From Pseudolactococcus piscium (GTDB lineage: Bacteria; Bacillota; Bacilli; Lactobacillales; Streptococcaceae): a stretch of DNA of 64,000 nucleotides. The stretch lies in the NCBI RefSeq assembly GCF_002441695.1, contig NZ_JXJW01000006.1, forward strand, positions 1 through 64,000. The letters run 5' to 3'. Below, piece after piece: positions 6,879 through 52,510 of the stretch. Every line of letters starts with the position of its first letter. Positions within the stretch are counted from its first letter, which is position 1. The position numbers and the translations under genes were made by a program. Below the pieces are notes generated by a model. That model was not told the origin of the DNA. It saw only the letters and a program-made list of their open reading frames with translations, and did no database searches.

Positions 6879-6907
6879 TTGTAAAACACGCTAAAGTCGT
6901 GTATAAT
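6879..6907 (+). promoter_or_regulatory. rpsB promoter
   Basis: TTGTAA (6879-6884), exactly 17 bases, TATAAT (6902-6907). Confidence 0.85.
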
Positions 6908-7038
6908 TAAATGGTTGCAGTAAAATTTTACGCAATCTAAACCACATTTTGAACGGATATCATCGTTGTGCTAGCGATAGTTGCGGTGATAGGTGATGTT
7001 TGAAAGAGGAAAAAACAATTTTAAAAGGAGACTAGCTC
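6908..7038 (+). promoter_or_regulatory. Structured 5' leader of rpsB (candidate S2 autoregulatory leader)
   Basis: The 130-base leader contains a hairpin made from TTGC/GTAAAA and TTTTAC/GCAA (6915-6935) and a second stem ATCATCG (6959-6965) with CGGTGAT (6984-6990). rpsB leaders are controlled by S2 in other bacteria. I cannot match this one to a known leader family, so the role is inferred. Confidence 0.4.
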
Positions 7039-7952: not shown

Positions 7953-8000
7953 GAGTTGGCAAGCGTTAGCGAGTCAACTCAAATGACCAATAAAATTGAA

Positions 8001-8033
8001 AGAGGGCGGGGCCTACGCCTCAGCCCTCTTTTT
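8001..8033 (+). terminator. Strong GC-rich terminator between rpsB and tsf
   Basis: AGAGGGC (8001-8007) pairs with GCCCTCT (8023-8029), with an inner GGC/GCC, followed by TTTTT. A further stem GAGTTG...CAACTC lies just upstream at about 7953-7980. If efficient, it makes tsf depend on read-through or its own promoter. Confidence 0.85.
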
Positions 8034-8079
8034 CATAAAAAATTAAGTATCATAAGCACATCAAAAAGGAGAAAATAAA

Positions 8080-36338: not shown

Positions 36339-36452
36339 ATGATACTCAAAATATCTTGGAAAGTTCATAAAGGCTATTTCAGGGATACATGAACGAGCAA
36401 GGTCAACCTCTAGATAGAGTAGGACTTGTCTTATAGAAAACGAAACAAATTC

Positions 36453-36481
36453 TTGACTATTCCTGACCAAGTGCGTATAAT
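36453..36481 (+). promoter_or_regulatory. groESL promoter
   Basis: TTGACT (36453-36458), 17 bases, TATAAT (36476-36481): near-consensus sigma-A promoter immediately before CIRCE. Confidence 0.9.
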
Positions 36482-36488
36482 TAAATCA

Positions 36489-36515
36489 TTAGCACTCTTA
36501 CGTATTGAGTGCCAA
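36489..36515 (+). promoter_or_regulatory. CIRCE element (HrcA operator)
   Basis: TTAGCACTC, nine bases, GAGTGCCAA. It matches the CIRCE consensus TTAGCACTC-N9-GAGTGCTAA at all but one base and lies at the predicted start of transcription. HrcA bound here represses groESL until heat shock. Confidence 0.95.
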
Positions 36516-36543
36516 AAATTAAAAATAATTGGAGGCTTACCAA

Positions 36544-38586: not shown

Positions 38587-38689
38587 AGAATAAAGACAGA
38601 CAGTCCCAAGAAATTTGATTGATTTCACGAACTTTCTTCAAAAGCACCTGATAAAAACCCTAGAACGGTGGTAATAACTTACTAGATTT

Positions 38690-38698
38690 GTTATAATT
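38690..38698 (+). promoter_or_regulatory. purA promoter (extended -10)
   Basis: TGT-TATAAT (38690-38698), no clear -35. No PurR-type PurBox is visible in the gap. Confidence 0.6.
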
Positions 38699-38726
38699 AA
38701 GTGTTGCAATTTTAGCAAGTTTTTAA

Positions 38727-40058
<1,332 letters not shown>

Positions 40059-45762: not shown

Positions 45763-45807
45763 TGATAGACACAGTCACACGAATTCCCATTAATCGTGTG
45801 TCTATCA
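45763..45807 (-). promoter_or_regulatory. Imperfect inverted repeat in the usp leader
   Basis: Bases 45763-45782 and 45794-45807 form a stem of TGATAGACAC plus ACACGA with a four-base insertion in one arm. On the minus strand it lies just after the predicted start of transcription. It may be an operator or an mRNA structure; no T run, so not a terminator. Confidence 0.6.
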
Positions 45808-45821
45808 CATCATCTACTGCT

Positions 45822-45850
45822 ATTATATGCTCATTTTATGAAAAAGTAAA
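45822..45850 (-). promoter_or_regulatory. usp promoter
   Basis: On the minus strand: TTTACT (complement of 45845-45850), 17 bases, TATAAT (complement of 45822-45827). Confidence 0.75.
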
Positions 45851-45940
45851 AGAATAATGAAAAAAATATGACGTATTGATGTTATTTTCATGTACATATC
45901 ATGAATGGATAGCTGACCACAAGAATTTTAAGCCAGATTA

Positions 45941-48465: not shown

Positions 48466-49083
48466 TTAATTATCCTGCATGGTACTAGCGATGACTAATT
48501 CTCTAATAGAGACGTCTTGAGGCATGGCATACATGAATGCGACAGCATTGGCTACTTCTTTTGGAGCCATCGAAATACCGCCCATGGTCTGCTTCCAAGC
48601 ATGATAGCCATCTTTTATGTCATCACGTGTCGTGTGGCTTAATAATGGGGTTTCTGCTGCACCTGGTGAGATGAGTAGGACGCGGACATTGTTTTTAGAG
48701 GCTTCCAGTCTGACGGTTTCTGTCAGACCATGAACACCAAATTTTGTTGCACAGTAAGCTGCATGGTTTTCAAATGCTTTAAATCCGGCAATAGAAGAGA
48801 CATTGATAATCGTACCTGACTTTCTGTCAGTCATACCGGGTAGAACTGCTTGTATCCCGTTTAATGTCCCAATTAAATTCACATTTATCATCCGTTCCCA
48901 CTCGGTAGCTGCTTGATTGCCGACATCCACGCTACGTGTTAAAGTGTTTACTAAGCCTAGTTGGTCTAATGCTGCTTTATTTCTGCCAATCAGGAGTAGG
49001 GGGTGTCCCATTTCACTGAATGTTTTGGCCATTTCTTTTCCAAAGCCACTGCCTGCACCAGTTATGACGATTAATTTTTTCAT
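48466..49083 (-). pseudogene. Short-chain dehydrogenase with internal deletion (YdfG-like), possibly inactive
   Basis: The 205-residue frame is open but shorter than the usual 240-250. It keeps the cofactor loop VITGAGSGFGKEMA, the catalytic Ser in INVSSIAGF and Tyr-X3-Lys in YCATKFG. Between SVDVGNQAA (to residue 59) and TEWERMINVNL (from 60) the expected beta4 region with the NNAG motif, about 35-40 residues, is missing (around 48900-48915). Loss of NNAG should destroy the fold's central strand. It is divergent from an HxlR regulator that probably controls it. Whether it is functional is doubtful. Confidence 0.7.
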
Positions 49084-49194: not shown

Positions 49195-49527
49195 ATGTAT
49201 CTAAATGAGTTTGATGCAACGATGAAGCTAATTCAAGGTAAATGGAAAATCTATATTATCTATTATATCCATGAACAAGATACAACACGATTTAACCAAT
49301 TATCTAGAGATTTACCGGATGTTAGCAGGAAAACACTAACGCTACAATTAAGGCAACTTGAACGAGATGGCCTAATCGTTCGGATGACCACATCAGGCTA
49401 TCCATTAAAAGTTACCTATCATCTGACACCTGATGGTCTCAGTATGATACCTGTGCTGGATATGATTTGTGATTGGGGCAATGAGCATATCTCACAGGAG
49501 CTTTTAGCAGCAAAGTTGTGTGATTGA
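49195..49527 (+). CDS. HxlR family transcriptional regulator
   Basis: The 110-residue winged-helix protein has LIQGKWKIYIIYYI, RFNQLSRDLPDVSRKTLTLQ (recognition helix), LRQLERDGLIVR and YHLTPDGLSMIPVL, the HxlR hallmark order. The N-terminal redox Cys of many HxlR proteins is absent; the only Cys are near the end (MICDWGNE, KLCD). AGGAGA precedes ATG 49195. It is divergent from the damaged SDR, the classic HxlR-oxidoreductase pair. Confidence 0.9.
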   Translation: MYLNEFDATMKLIQGKWKIYIIYYIHEQDTTRFNQLSRDLPDVSRKTLTLQLRQLERDGLIVRMTTSGYPLKVTYHLTPDGLSMIPVLDMICDWGNEHISQELLAAKLCD

Positions 49528-49622: not shown

Positions 49623-49826
49623 ATGAGTAAGTACGAGCCATTATGGCAGATTGTCGCAAAAGATAGTCGTATAACATTTAGATTGACTTTTGAAGAGATT
49701 GAGGCTATCCTAGGCTTCCCTATAGACCATGCCTTCTTGACCTATAAGAAGGAATTAAAAGCCTATGGTTATGAGGTTGGCAAAATTTCGATGAAGGAAA
49801 AGCATGTTAATTTTAAAAAATTATAG
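49623..49826 (+). CDS. Small protein resembling DUF7662-type domains, unknown function
   Basis: The 67-residue product has KYEPLWQIVAKD, RLTFEEIEAILGFPIDHAFL and a C-terminal YGYEVGKISMKEKHVNF. The pattern (Leu-Thr-Phe-x-Glu-Ile-Glu, Gly-Phe, ending Val-x-Phe) recalls a small domain often found alone or fused to nucleases and HTH proteins, but the usual Trp-Trp is replaced. TTGGAGG 8 bases before ATG 49623 supports translation. It sits after hxlR with a 95-base gap. Function unknown. Confidence 0.6.
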   Translation: MSKYEPLWQIVAKDSRITFRLTFEEIEAILGFPIDHAFLTYKKELKAYGYEVGKISMKEKHVNFKKL

Positions 49827-49854
49827 CGTTTTAATGTTAGCTGTGACAAAAATG

Positions 49855-49983
49855 TTGACATCCCTCTATAAAAGGTATAACATAGAAGGATAGATGCAAA
49901 AGCATAGTTGTTCAAGTGATGGTCATCCTACTGATATGAGTTGATATGATCAAAAAAACCTACTGAGAAATCAGTAGTTTTTT
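49855..49983 (+). ncRNA. Candidate small RNA or attenuator before iscS-thiI
   Basis: TTGACA (49855-49860) and TATAAC (49876-49881), 15 bases apart, are followed by about 100 bases and an intrinsic terminator CTACTGA-GAAA-TCAGTAG-TTTTTT (49960-49983). CCTACTGA occurs twice (49927-49934 and 49959-49966), so the 3' arm TCAGTAG can pair with either copy, the logic of an attenuator. Two small hairpins (ATGC-AAAA-GCAT and TTGAT-ATG-ATCAA) lie between. No T-box or known riboswitch features are seen. Confidence 0.5.
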
Positions 49984-50109
49984 AATGGCATAACTGTCAT
50001 CCAGTGCTAAAAGAGATAAAAGGGTATATAGTTGGTGCTTAGCAAGTAAAGACAGGTAATACCGGATGCATATAATGATGTTTAAAAACATGTAAAAAGG
50101 AAAAAGATA

Positions 50110-51252
50110 GTGATATATTTTGATAATGCAGCAACGACGGCAATCTATCCGCAAGTGCTGAAGACGTATACCGATGTTGCGACTAGAATTATGGGTAATC
50201 CCTCTAGTCTTCACGATTTAGGGACTGTCGCGACACGTATGTTGCAGGCCTCGCGCAAGCAAATTGCAGAACTACTTGGGAAAGCAACATCAGAAATTTA
50301 TTTTACGTCAGGCGGCACTGAGGGGGATAATTGGATCATCAAAGGACTAGCTTTTGAAAAAAAAGTCTATGGTAATCATATTATCGTTTCAGATGTTGAG
50401 CATCCAGCTGTCAAAGAATCAGCGGCATGGTTAATGACACAAGGTTTTGAGGTCGATTTTGCTCCTGTAGACAGGAACGGTTTCGTTAGCCTAGATGCCC
50501 TTGCTTCATTAATCAGAAGAGAGACGATTTTAATCTCGGTTATGGCAGTCAACAATGAAGTTGGTGCAATCGAACCACTTCATCAGATTGCAGCACTTTT
50601 GGCAGATAAACCGACGATTTCCTTTCATGTTGATGCGGTGCAAGCGATTGGGAAAATCCCCCTCGCAGATATGTTACCGCAACGTGTTGATTTTGCGACC
50701 TTTTCAGCACATAAGTTTCATGGCCCGCGTGGGGTCGGCTTTATTTATATGAAAAAAGGGAAAAATCTGCATCCCTTACTTTCAGGTGGTGGTCAAGAAA
50801 GTAAAAAAAGGTCAACAACTGAAAATGTCGCAGGTATTGCTGCAACTGCCAAAGCCCTTCGCCTATATGTAGCAGAAACTGAGAGCAAGCAAGTCAAGCT
50901 TACTGCCATGAAAGAAGTCTTGCTGACTGCGCTTGAAGCATACTCGGATATTGTCATTTTTAGTCAAAGAGATGGGTTCATTCCAAATGTTGTGACATTT
51001 GGCATGAAGGGTGTCCGAGGAGAAGTCCTCGTGCATGGATTTGAAGCACATGAGATCTACATTTCGACGACAAGTGCTTGCTCATCAAAGGCAGGACTTG
51101 CTTCTAGTACCCTGACAGCCATGCATGTTTCACCTAGACTTGCCACATCGGCAGTTAGGATTTCTCTTGACCCAGACAATAATATGGCTGAAATAGAACA
51201 ATTTCTAACGATTTTCAAACAGTTACATGCGAAATTTCAGAAAATACAATAA
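50110..51252 (+). CDS. Cysteine desulfurase (IscS/NifS-like)
   Basis: This PLP enzyme takes sulfur from cysteine as a persulfide. The 380-residue class V aminotransferase fold has IYFDNAATTAIYP, the PLP Lys in TFSAHKFHGPRGVGF and the active Cys in STTSACSSKAG. GTG 50110 is the start. It immediately precedes thiI (34 bases), as NifZ-ThiI in Bacillus, so its main job is probably to load ThiI for 4-thiouridine in tRNA. Its transcript may begin at the upstream promoter-terminator unit. Confidence 0.92.
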   Translation: MIYFDNAATTAIYPQVLKTYTDVATRIMGNPSSLHDLGTVATRMLQASRKQIAELLGKATSEIYFTSGGTEGDNWIIKGLAFEKKVYGNHIIVSDVEHPAVKESAAWLMTQGFEVDFAPVDRNGFVSLDALASLIRRETILISVMAVNNEVGAIEPLHQIAALLADKPTISFHVDAVQAIGKIPLADMLPQRVDFATFSAHKFHGPRGVGFIYMKKGKNLHPLLSGGGQESKKRSTTENVAGIAATAKALRLYVAETESKQVKLTAMKEVLLTALEAYSDIVIFSQRDGFIPNVVTFGMKGVRGEVLVHGFEAHEIYISTTSACSSKAGLASSTLTAMHVSPRLATSAVRISLDPDNNMAEIEQFLTIFKQLHAKFQKIQ

Positions 51253-51286: not shown

Positions 51287-52510
51287 ATGACAAATTTAAA
51301 CTATTCAGAAATACTGATTCGCTATGGCGAGTTATCAATAAAAGGCAAAAATCGTATGAAATTTATTGCACGACTTGCCAACAATATCAGAGAAGTTTTA
51401 GTCGAATGGCCGATGGTTTCTGTAAAGTCAGATCGGGATCGGACGCATATATTCTTAAATGGTGCCGCTTATGGTCCCTTGTCAGAGAAGTTAGTTAAAG
51501 TATTTGGCGTACAAAATTTTTCTCCGGCTATAAAAGTGGAGAAAACGATGCCGGCACTTGAAGCTGCGGTAGCTGAACTGGTGAAAAAAGTTTATCTAGA
51601 GGGCATGACCTTCAAAATTTCTGCCAAGCGTTCTGACCATGAATTTGAATTAGATAGTACAGAACTTAATCGTGAATTAGGCCATACTGTGATGGAAACG
51701 ATTCCCTATGCTAAGGTTCAGATGAAACGCCCTGATATTGACCTACGTGTTGAAATTCGGCCTGATGCGGCTTATTTGAGCTATGAGACGGTTAAGGGAG
51801 CGGGTGGTTTACCCGTTGGTACGGCAGGTAAAGGGATGCTGATGCTGTCGGGTGGTATTGACTCTCCTGTAGCAGGGTATTTGGCACTTAAACGAGGTGT
51901 TGAAATAGAAGCAGTTCATTTTGCTTCGCCACCTTACACGGGCCCTGGTTCGCTCAAAAAAGCCAAAGACTTAGCAAGTAAATTGACAGTTTTTGGTGGT
52001 GATATTCAGTTTATAGAAGTCCCGTTTACTGAAATACAGGAAGAAATTAAAGAAAAAGTACCCATGCCTTACCTGATGACAGTAACGCGTCGTTTTATGA
52101 TGCGCGTGGTCGATGAAATTCGTGCAAGACGTCATGGACAAGTGATCATTAACGGTGAGAGTCTTGGACAAGTTGCCAGCCAAACGTTAGGCTCGATGGT
52201 CGCAATCAACGCTGTTACCACAACGCCTATCATCCGTCCGGTTGTTACCTTGGATAAGTTAGAGATTATTGAATTGGCTGAGAAAATTGATACTTTTAAT
52301 ATTTCAATTCAACCATTTGAAGATTGTTGTACGATTTTTGCACCACCCCAACCGAAAACAAATCCTAAACTTGAGAACGCAGAGAAATTTGAGCAGCGCT
52401 TAGATATTGATAATTTAGTGCAACGTGCGGTCGATGGCATCATGATCAGTCAAGTATCAGCTGATGCGCAAGTAGATAGTCTAGAGATGGATATTCAGGA
52501 TTTATTGTAA
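51287..52510 (+). CDS. thiI: tRNA 4-thiouridine synthetase ThiI
   Basis: ThiI adenylates U8 of tRNA and inserts sulfur. The 407-residue protein has a ferredoxin-like N-terminus and THUMP domain (about 1-165) and the PP-loop [19 protein letters not shown] near 185. It lacks the C-terminal rhodanese domain of the E. coli protein, as usual in Firmicutes, so it depends on the desulfurase encoded just upstream. Confidence 0.96.

Follow-up and report, generated by a model that had tools for sequence, protein, structure and literature searches.

The window analysed here is a stretch of 64,000 nucleotides of Pseudolactococcus piscium, located on contig C56 of a 2.4-Mb genome (G000). Within it a gap of 283 bases (49827-50109, + strand) separates a 67-codon ORF, which follows a gene for an HxlR regulator, from iscS and thiI, and the ORF, iscS and thiI are all carried by the + strand. 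Products of the downstream pair match class-V aminotransferases (IscS-like) and ThiI. The 67-codon ORF is present in three species and gives no Pfam match at E 0.001. According to the sequence-only reading, a promoter, about 100 bases and an intrinsic terminator are lodged in this gap, and our scans placed both signals there. The set of genomes bearing the unit comprises G000 and two relatives, G003 and G010. Features of the locus are as follows.

49195-49527, + strand: HxlR regulator gene (ORF list, domain match)
49623-49826, + strand: 67-codon ORF downstream of the HxlR gene
49855-49883, + strand: promoter-like site P1, TTGACA-17-TAACAT, 10 of 12 consensus positions
49890-49982, + strand: predicted short transcript of about 93 nt, its start placed from the position of the -10 element
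49960-49983, + strand: intrinsic terminator from the motif scan, a 7-bp stem CTACTGA-GAAA-TCAGTAG (49960-49977) with GAAA loop, then T6
50049-50076, + strand: possible weak iscS-proximal promoter, AAGACA-16-TATAAT (motif scan)
50110-51252, + strand: iscS, cysteine desulfurase-like, GTG start (ORF list, domain match)
51287-52510, + strand: thiI (ORF list, domain match)

Promoter, terminator and predicted fold

Under a strict joint rule (promoter with at least 10 of 12 consensus positions, terminator 50-160 nt downstream) the unit before iscS-thiI is the sole match among 20 gaps of at least 120 nt on both strands of the window, a set that rests on a gene list hand-picked from ORFs, and none of 1000 dinucleotide shuffles of the gap yields such a pair on the + strand. 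The promoter-terminator pair thus exceeds chance. With looser settings the five promoter-like sites in the region are ordinary (3.2 ± 1.8 in shuffles), and two terminator matches represent one hairpin read on both strands. P1, whose -10 element is overlapped by TATAAC at 15 nt from the same -35, is also found in G010; the iscS-proximal promoter-like site was not found there by the scan, and G003 has TATAAA at this place, which could still work. A minus-strand promoter-like site (49849-49820) was dropped, as inspection of the alignment by eye indicated that its TATAAT is kept neither in G003 nor in G010.

Folding of the short transcript predicts two hairpins in front of the terminator and one marginal alternative pairing.

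49894-49905, + strand: 5' hairpin I, AUGC-AAAA-GCAU (predicted fold)
49906-49964, + strand: marginal alternative pairing of 49906-49912 with 49957-49964, a possible weak antiterminator (predicted fold)
49920-49952, + strand: hairpin II, UGGUCAU with AUGAUCA (predicted fold)
49927-49934, + strand: CCTACTGA copy 1, in the loop of hairpin II
49959-49966, + strand: CCTACTGA copy 2, containing the 5' arm of the terminator

A 97-nt fold is more stable than shuffled sequences (z -3.0), and without the terminator it becomes unremarkable (z -1.5, 15 of 200 shuffles being equally good). The double occurrence of CCTACTGA, 32 bases apart, had been pointed out before and holds, no further copy being present on either strand of the window. 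Dinucleotide shuffling of the 93 nt produced an 8-mer repeat in 159 of 2000 cases (about 8%), mononucleotide shuffling in 9.1% of 5000; at this chance frequency we rejected the repeat as a sign of design. It was also proposed that either copy can pair with the 3' arm of the terminator. For copy 1 such pairing is possible at -12.8 kcal/mol versus -20.5 kcal/mol for the best fold (7.7 worse), but the idea of a switch is not supported, since copy 1 and the 3' arm still close a hairpin directly before the T run and therefore form no antiterminator. The sole antiterminator found, that of 49906-49912 with 49957-49964, is marginal. It covers part of the terminator 5' arm and before completion of the terminator is predicted to gain 1.7 kcal/mol (-12.6 vs -10.9), while at full length the terminator state prevails (-20.5 vs -12.6 kcal/mol), and with the base found in G010 this pairing is no longer part of the best fold. 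A regulated switch is therefore not demonstrated.

Conservation within the genus

Across the three species bearing the unit the 93-nt body (49890-49982) has one variable site, 49950, which is also the only one over 49890 to 49989; here T is replaced by C in G010, converting a G-U into a G-C pair of hairpin II. The 126 bases before iscS contain 36 variable positions with indel columns counted, so that the conserved body has a sharp downstream edge. Pairwise differences amount to 2, 1 and 2 of 98 sites at positions 49886-49983 and to 24/125, 21/124 and 26/124 in the gap behind the terminator. Fourfold sites of iscS (25/184, 36/179, 27/176) and thiI (19/184, 42/181, 42/182) differ by 10-23%, and those of the upstream genes differ less (3/37, 4/37 and 5/36 for the HxlR gene; 1/16, 2/17 and 0/17 for the 67-codon ORF), so iscS-thiI may overstate the local background. 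Conservation of the pairings, expected by the sequence-only reading, is observed in three species and carries little weight, since almost nothing varies: 31 of 33 predicted pairs are invariant, and covariation is thus uninformative.

As a control the whole window was compared with syntenic stretches of G003 and G010, where 21 intergenic regions offered a fully aligned 93-nt stretch. A stretch with not more than one variable site was found in four of them, namely the unit before iscS, the L21 leader (none variable) and two others, which have their longest invariant run ending 28-37 nt ahead of a gene. A stretch with three variable sites or fewer exists in nine of the 21. Conservation of the body is hence high but not unique in the window. 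In six of the other eight of these nine regions the longest invariant run is placed near the next gene; the conserved block of the unit is not.

The same comparison provided several side observations. The intergenic region with the L21 leader (RF00559, 42778-42906) is invariant over 129 nt in the three genomes. Other long invariant intergenic runs (2328-2416, 7984-8051, 36447-36528, 38682-38765, 45801-45877 and 6900-6952) have no Rfam match at gathering score, and those at 45801 and 6900 are 86-101 nt away from the next gene. Matches to both relatives break at a short-chain dehydrogenase gene (48466-49083, - strand), which in G000 encodes 205 aa and, aligned with G010 and G003, has about 120 gap columns; the pattern suggests that the window's species has lost an internal part of the gene in frame.

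An IscS-like match occurs in all 12 genomes of the genus and this particular iscS (at least 79% identity) in 11 of them, the twelfth genome (G002) being 70% complete and having IscS-like matches of only 37% and 32%. Among the 11, three carry the unit, two have a homologous promoter with a different body, and six have neither. A covariance model of the RNA, searched with strict filters that lose weak matches, retrieved the same three out of 295 family genomes, all from the window's genus. Homology of weak DNA matches in G094 and G084 was rejected; that in G094 is a terminator with similar stem after another gene. Phage, plasmid and viral-contig searches, the last of which used one exact 26-mer, gave no matches. 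In the six genomes lacking both variants (G005 to G009 and G011) the upstream gene, which by its sequence reads like an antiporter, has a terminator-like hairpin behind it, and iscS comes next, with gaps of 49 to 294 nt. The longest of these gaps (L012 1207-1500, G007) exceeds those in close relatives and, by eye, seems to hold several short self-complementary stretches.

The different body belongs to G001 and G004, where the same place holds GTAAAAGGTATAATATAG, about 150 nt resembling a transcript, and a hairpin that is rich in A+T and has a T run.

L014 1261-1407 (G004) and L015 1254-1406 (G001): transcript-like stretch of about 150 nt before iscS, two sequences

Both sequences have conserved ends, GGUAUGANUAUAGU and CUAUAGNAUACU, able to form a basal stem, around a variable middle, and their terminator-like hairpin is weaker than in the window's group. 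The best fold of L015 alone is devoid of the basal stem, and its coordinates bear a two-base discrepancy between fold runs. Neither L014 nor L015 matches Rfam at gathering score, a permissive scan of L015 gave weak sub-threshold matches only, and our simple scan of L015 detected neither this promoter nor a terminator. Alignment of the promoter and start region of G003 with G001 scores 33, a value reached by none of 1000 shuffles (maximum 31), and when 120 TATAA[TC] sites are scored against G001, the window's site comes out on top (35, next 28). Judged from these alignments, the promoter of G001 and G004 is homologous to P1 and keeps the same position before iscS, and the bodies of the two groups align poorly. 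In the IscS+ThiI tree the groups are neighbours with support of 88/96, below the tool's 95 mark and to be read with care, as both outgroup ThiI rows are faulty (the 298-aa frame of L. taiwanensis is, judged by its start, not ThiI; that of L. hircilactis has only 49 aa); the IscS-only tree leaves their sister relation unsettled. Both groups start iscS with GTG, and so does L. hircilactis, so that the shared start is weak evidence.

Candidate functions of the unit

At the level of DNA the locus thus comprises patterns of a promoter and a terminator, their conservation in three species and, at the same position, a homologous promoter in two more, and from them we infer the existence of the RNA, its ends, read-through and any control. 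The unit probably makes a small regulatory RNA or a terminated leader, which would be a modest, lineage-specific find. Both of these options had been named in the sequence-only reading, and the promoter-terminator pair, the conservation of the body and its sharp downstream edge speak for a short RNA or terminated leader; the switch by alternative pairing found no support. Tuning of tRNA thiolation, suggested at the same time, is conceivable from the identity of the neighbouring genes only.

Our tentative preference is for a terminated leader of iscS-thiI that yields a short RNA and feeds the genes by read-through. Transcription would start at P1 near 49890, most polymerases would be halted by the terminator near 49982, setting free a structured RNA of some 93 nt, and a minority would read through and supply iscS-thiI; the invariant body would either control this read-through or let the released RNA act on its own. 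An intrinsic terminator does stand between P1 and iscS, the first gene of the operon, as expected for an attenuator. Since the iscS-proximal promoter-like site was not found in G010, P1 may be the source of the operon, and a terminated leader with read-through would explain why the position before iscS is retained and why no well-conserved promoter is found close to iscS. When such an element stays linked to the gene beside it, this speaks for cis action, albeit not as an absolute rule, and two leader families may double as trans-acting RNAs, according to a survey of attenuators (PMC2965389). Against the leader stand the lack of a strong antiterminator and of a known sensor family, the different body in G001 and G004 and the six of 11 genomes with neither variant.

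Almost as likely is a free-standing gene for a trans-acting sRNA which merely sits before iscS and pairs with mRNAs via the loop of hairpin II (CCUACUGA) or the single-stranded segment 49906-49919. It accounts for the unit's own promoter and terminator, for the conservation of a body including its loops and a single-stranded seed (one variable site per 93 nt in three species, where covariation is uninformative) next to DNA drifting between terminator and iscS, and for a stable terminator devoid of a convincing antiterminator. A printed analogue is the sRNA sLLM2- of L. cremoris, in which two 12-nt direct repeats cover hairpin loops (PMC13109727). The search for partners found no mRNA target. 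With 14 bases and up to two mismatches, the first seed gave 25, 21 and 13 matches in G000, G003 and G010 vs 14, 16 and 12 for the reversed-pattern control, and the second 74, 61 and 61 vs 55, 42 and 45, a modest excess in counts that include the RNA's own gene. Among the 60 loci listed (30 per seed, six being the RNA's own gene) one match, confined to one genome (G010), is start-proximal and has a ribosome site, and the start in question may lie inside a coding frame. A duplex test on genes hand-picked from the window (60, then 55) gave, for the set of 55, nine start regions with z below -2.5 vs three and five for two internal regions. None of 60 shuffles was as low as the real RNA at starts, two of 60 were at +60 and none of 60 at +120; the real RNA thus beats shuffles in coding regions too, and a start preference is not clear. 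All in all, we favour the leader slightly over the free sRNA, and both may hold.

A purely housekeeping arrangement, in which the terminator ends the upstream operon of the HxlR gene and the small ORF, iscS-thiI are transcribed from the promoter and the short RNA arises as a by-product, seems unlikely to us. It agrees with the motif scan, where no terminator-like site appears between the small ORF and P1, with the six other genomes of the genus in which the upstream gene is followed by a terminator-like hairpin and then by iscS, and with the similar conservation of other promoter or leader regions in the window. Yet a terminator downstream of the operon's own promoter would be wasteful, and the conserved block spans the body beyond promoter and stem alone and keeps away from the next gene, where most comparably conserved runs are found.

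Still less probable is a broader proposal, namely a fast-evolving class of leaders linked to iscS-thiI in one Pseudolactococcus-like clade, which would keep promoter and termination point and replace the sensing body (a 93-nt three-hairpin form vs about 150 nt, maybe closed by a basal stem) between two related groups, each body sensing, through a mechanism not yet described, the status of sulfur or of tRNA thiolation.

A leader peptide attenuator (ATG at 49894, 16 codons, MQKHSCSSDGHPTDMS, one Cys codon before a cysteine desulfurase gene) is highly improbable: by the alignment the three species all keep the frame open, but its ATG is only 4 nt from the presumed start of an RNA that lacks a conserved ribosome site, the upstream AAGGA is present in G000 and absent from G010 and G003, conservation extends past the frame, a single codon is for Cys, and no matching frame was seen by eye in G001 and G004.

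If real, the RNA would represent an RNA-level control point beside the genes for cysteine desulfurase and tRNA 4-thiouridine in a lactic acid bacterium, and the invariant body in one group vs a different body in a related one would make a small test case for turnover of leader RNAs. Should it be no more than a short sRNA, it would add to the many such RNAs already known from lactococci.

Relation to known RNA families

The earlier impression that the gap carries no known riboswitch or T-box was confirmed by the absence of Rfam matches at gathering score, and a permissive scan of the gap gave sub-threshold, chance-like matches only. Loci of 16 relatives yielded nine Rfam matches, all of them tRNAs and L21 leaders. 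The terminated leader architecture is shared with T-box and metabolite riboswitches represented in Rfam, but their covariance models find no match in the gap. Among the Streptococcaceae, the CiaR-controlled csRNAs of streptococci are likewise short, terminated and intergenic. The direct repeat of TTTAAG, which we take to be the CiaR site, was not seen by eye at 49830-49889, and in this the unit differs from csRNAs.

The 12-nt repeat of sLLM2- presumably resembles DnaA boxes, and by this likeness its copies may serve replication as well as the RNA. This repeat is located in the gap between the end of dnaA and the gene for DNA polymerase III beta (PMC13109727). Like the RNA described here, sLLM2- is a short intergenic RNA with a direct repeat, one copy of which is in a hairpin loop; compared without aligning the two RNAs, they differ in that both copies of sLLM2- cover loops whereas copy 2 here is a terminator arm, and in that our RNA is confined by covariance model search to three of 295 family genomes, all of the window's genus (PMC13109727). 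The same study lists 193 putative sRNAs in L. cremoris, and iscS, nifS and thiI are not named in its main text (PMC13109727); this also applies to the main texts of PMC10942264 and of the attenuator survey (PMC2965389). Among the matches listed, no publication stood out that describes such an RNA upstream of iscS-thiI in this group. With the premature-terminator leaders of that survey the unit shares a promoter, a leader and an intrinsic terminator before a same-strand operon at a position kept in some relatives, and unlike the surveyed attenuators it has no clear antiterminator or sensor (PMC2965389).
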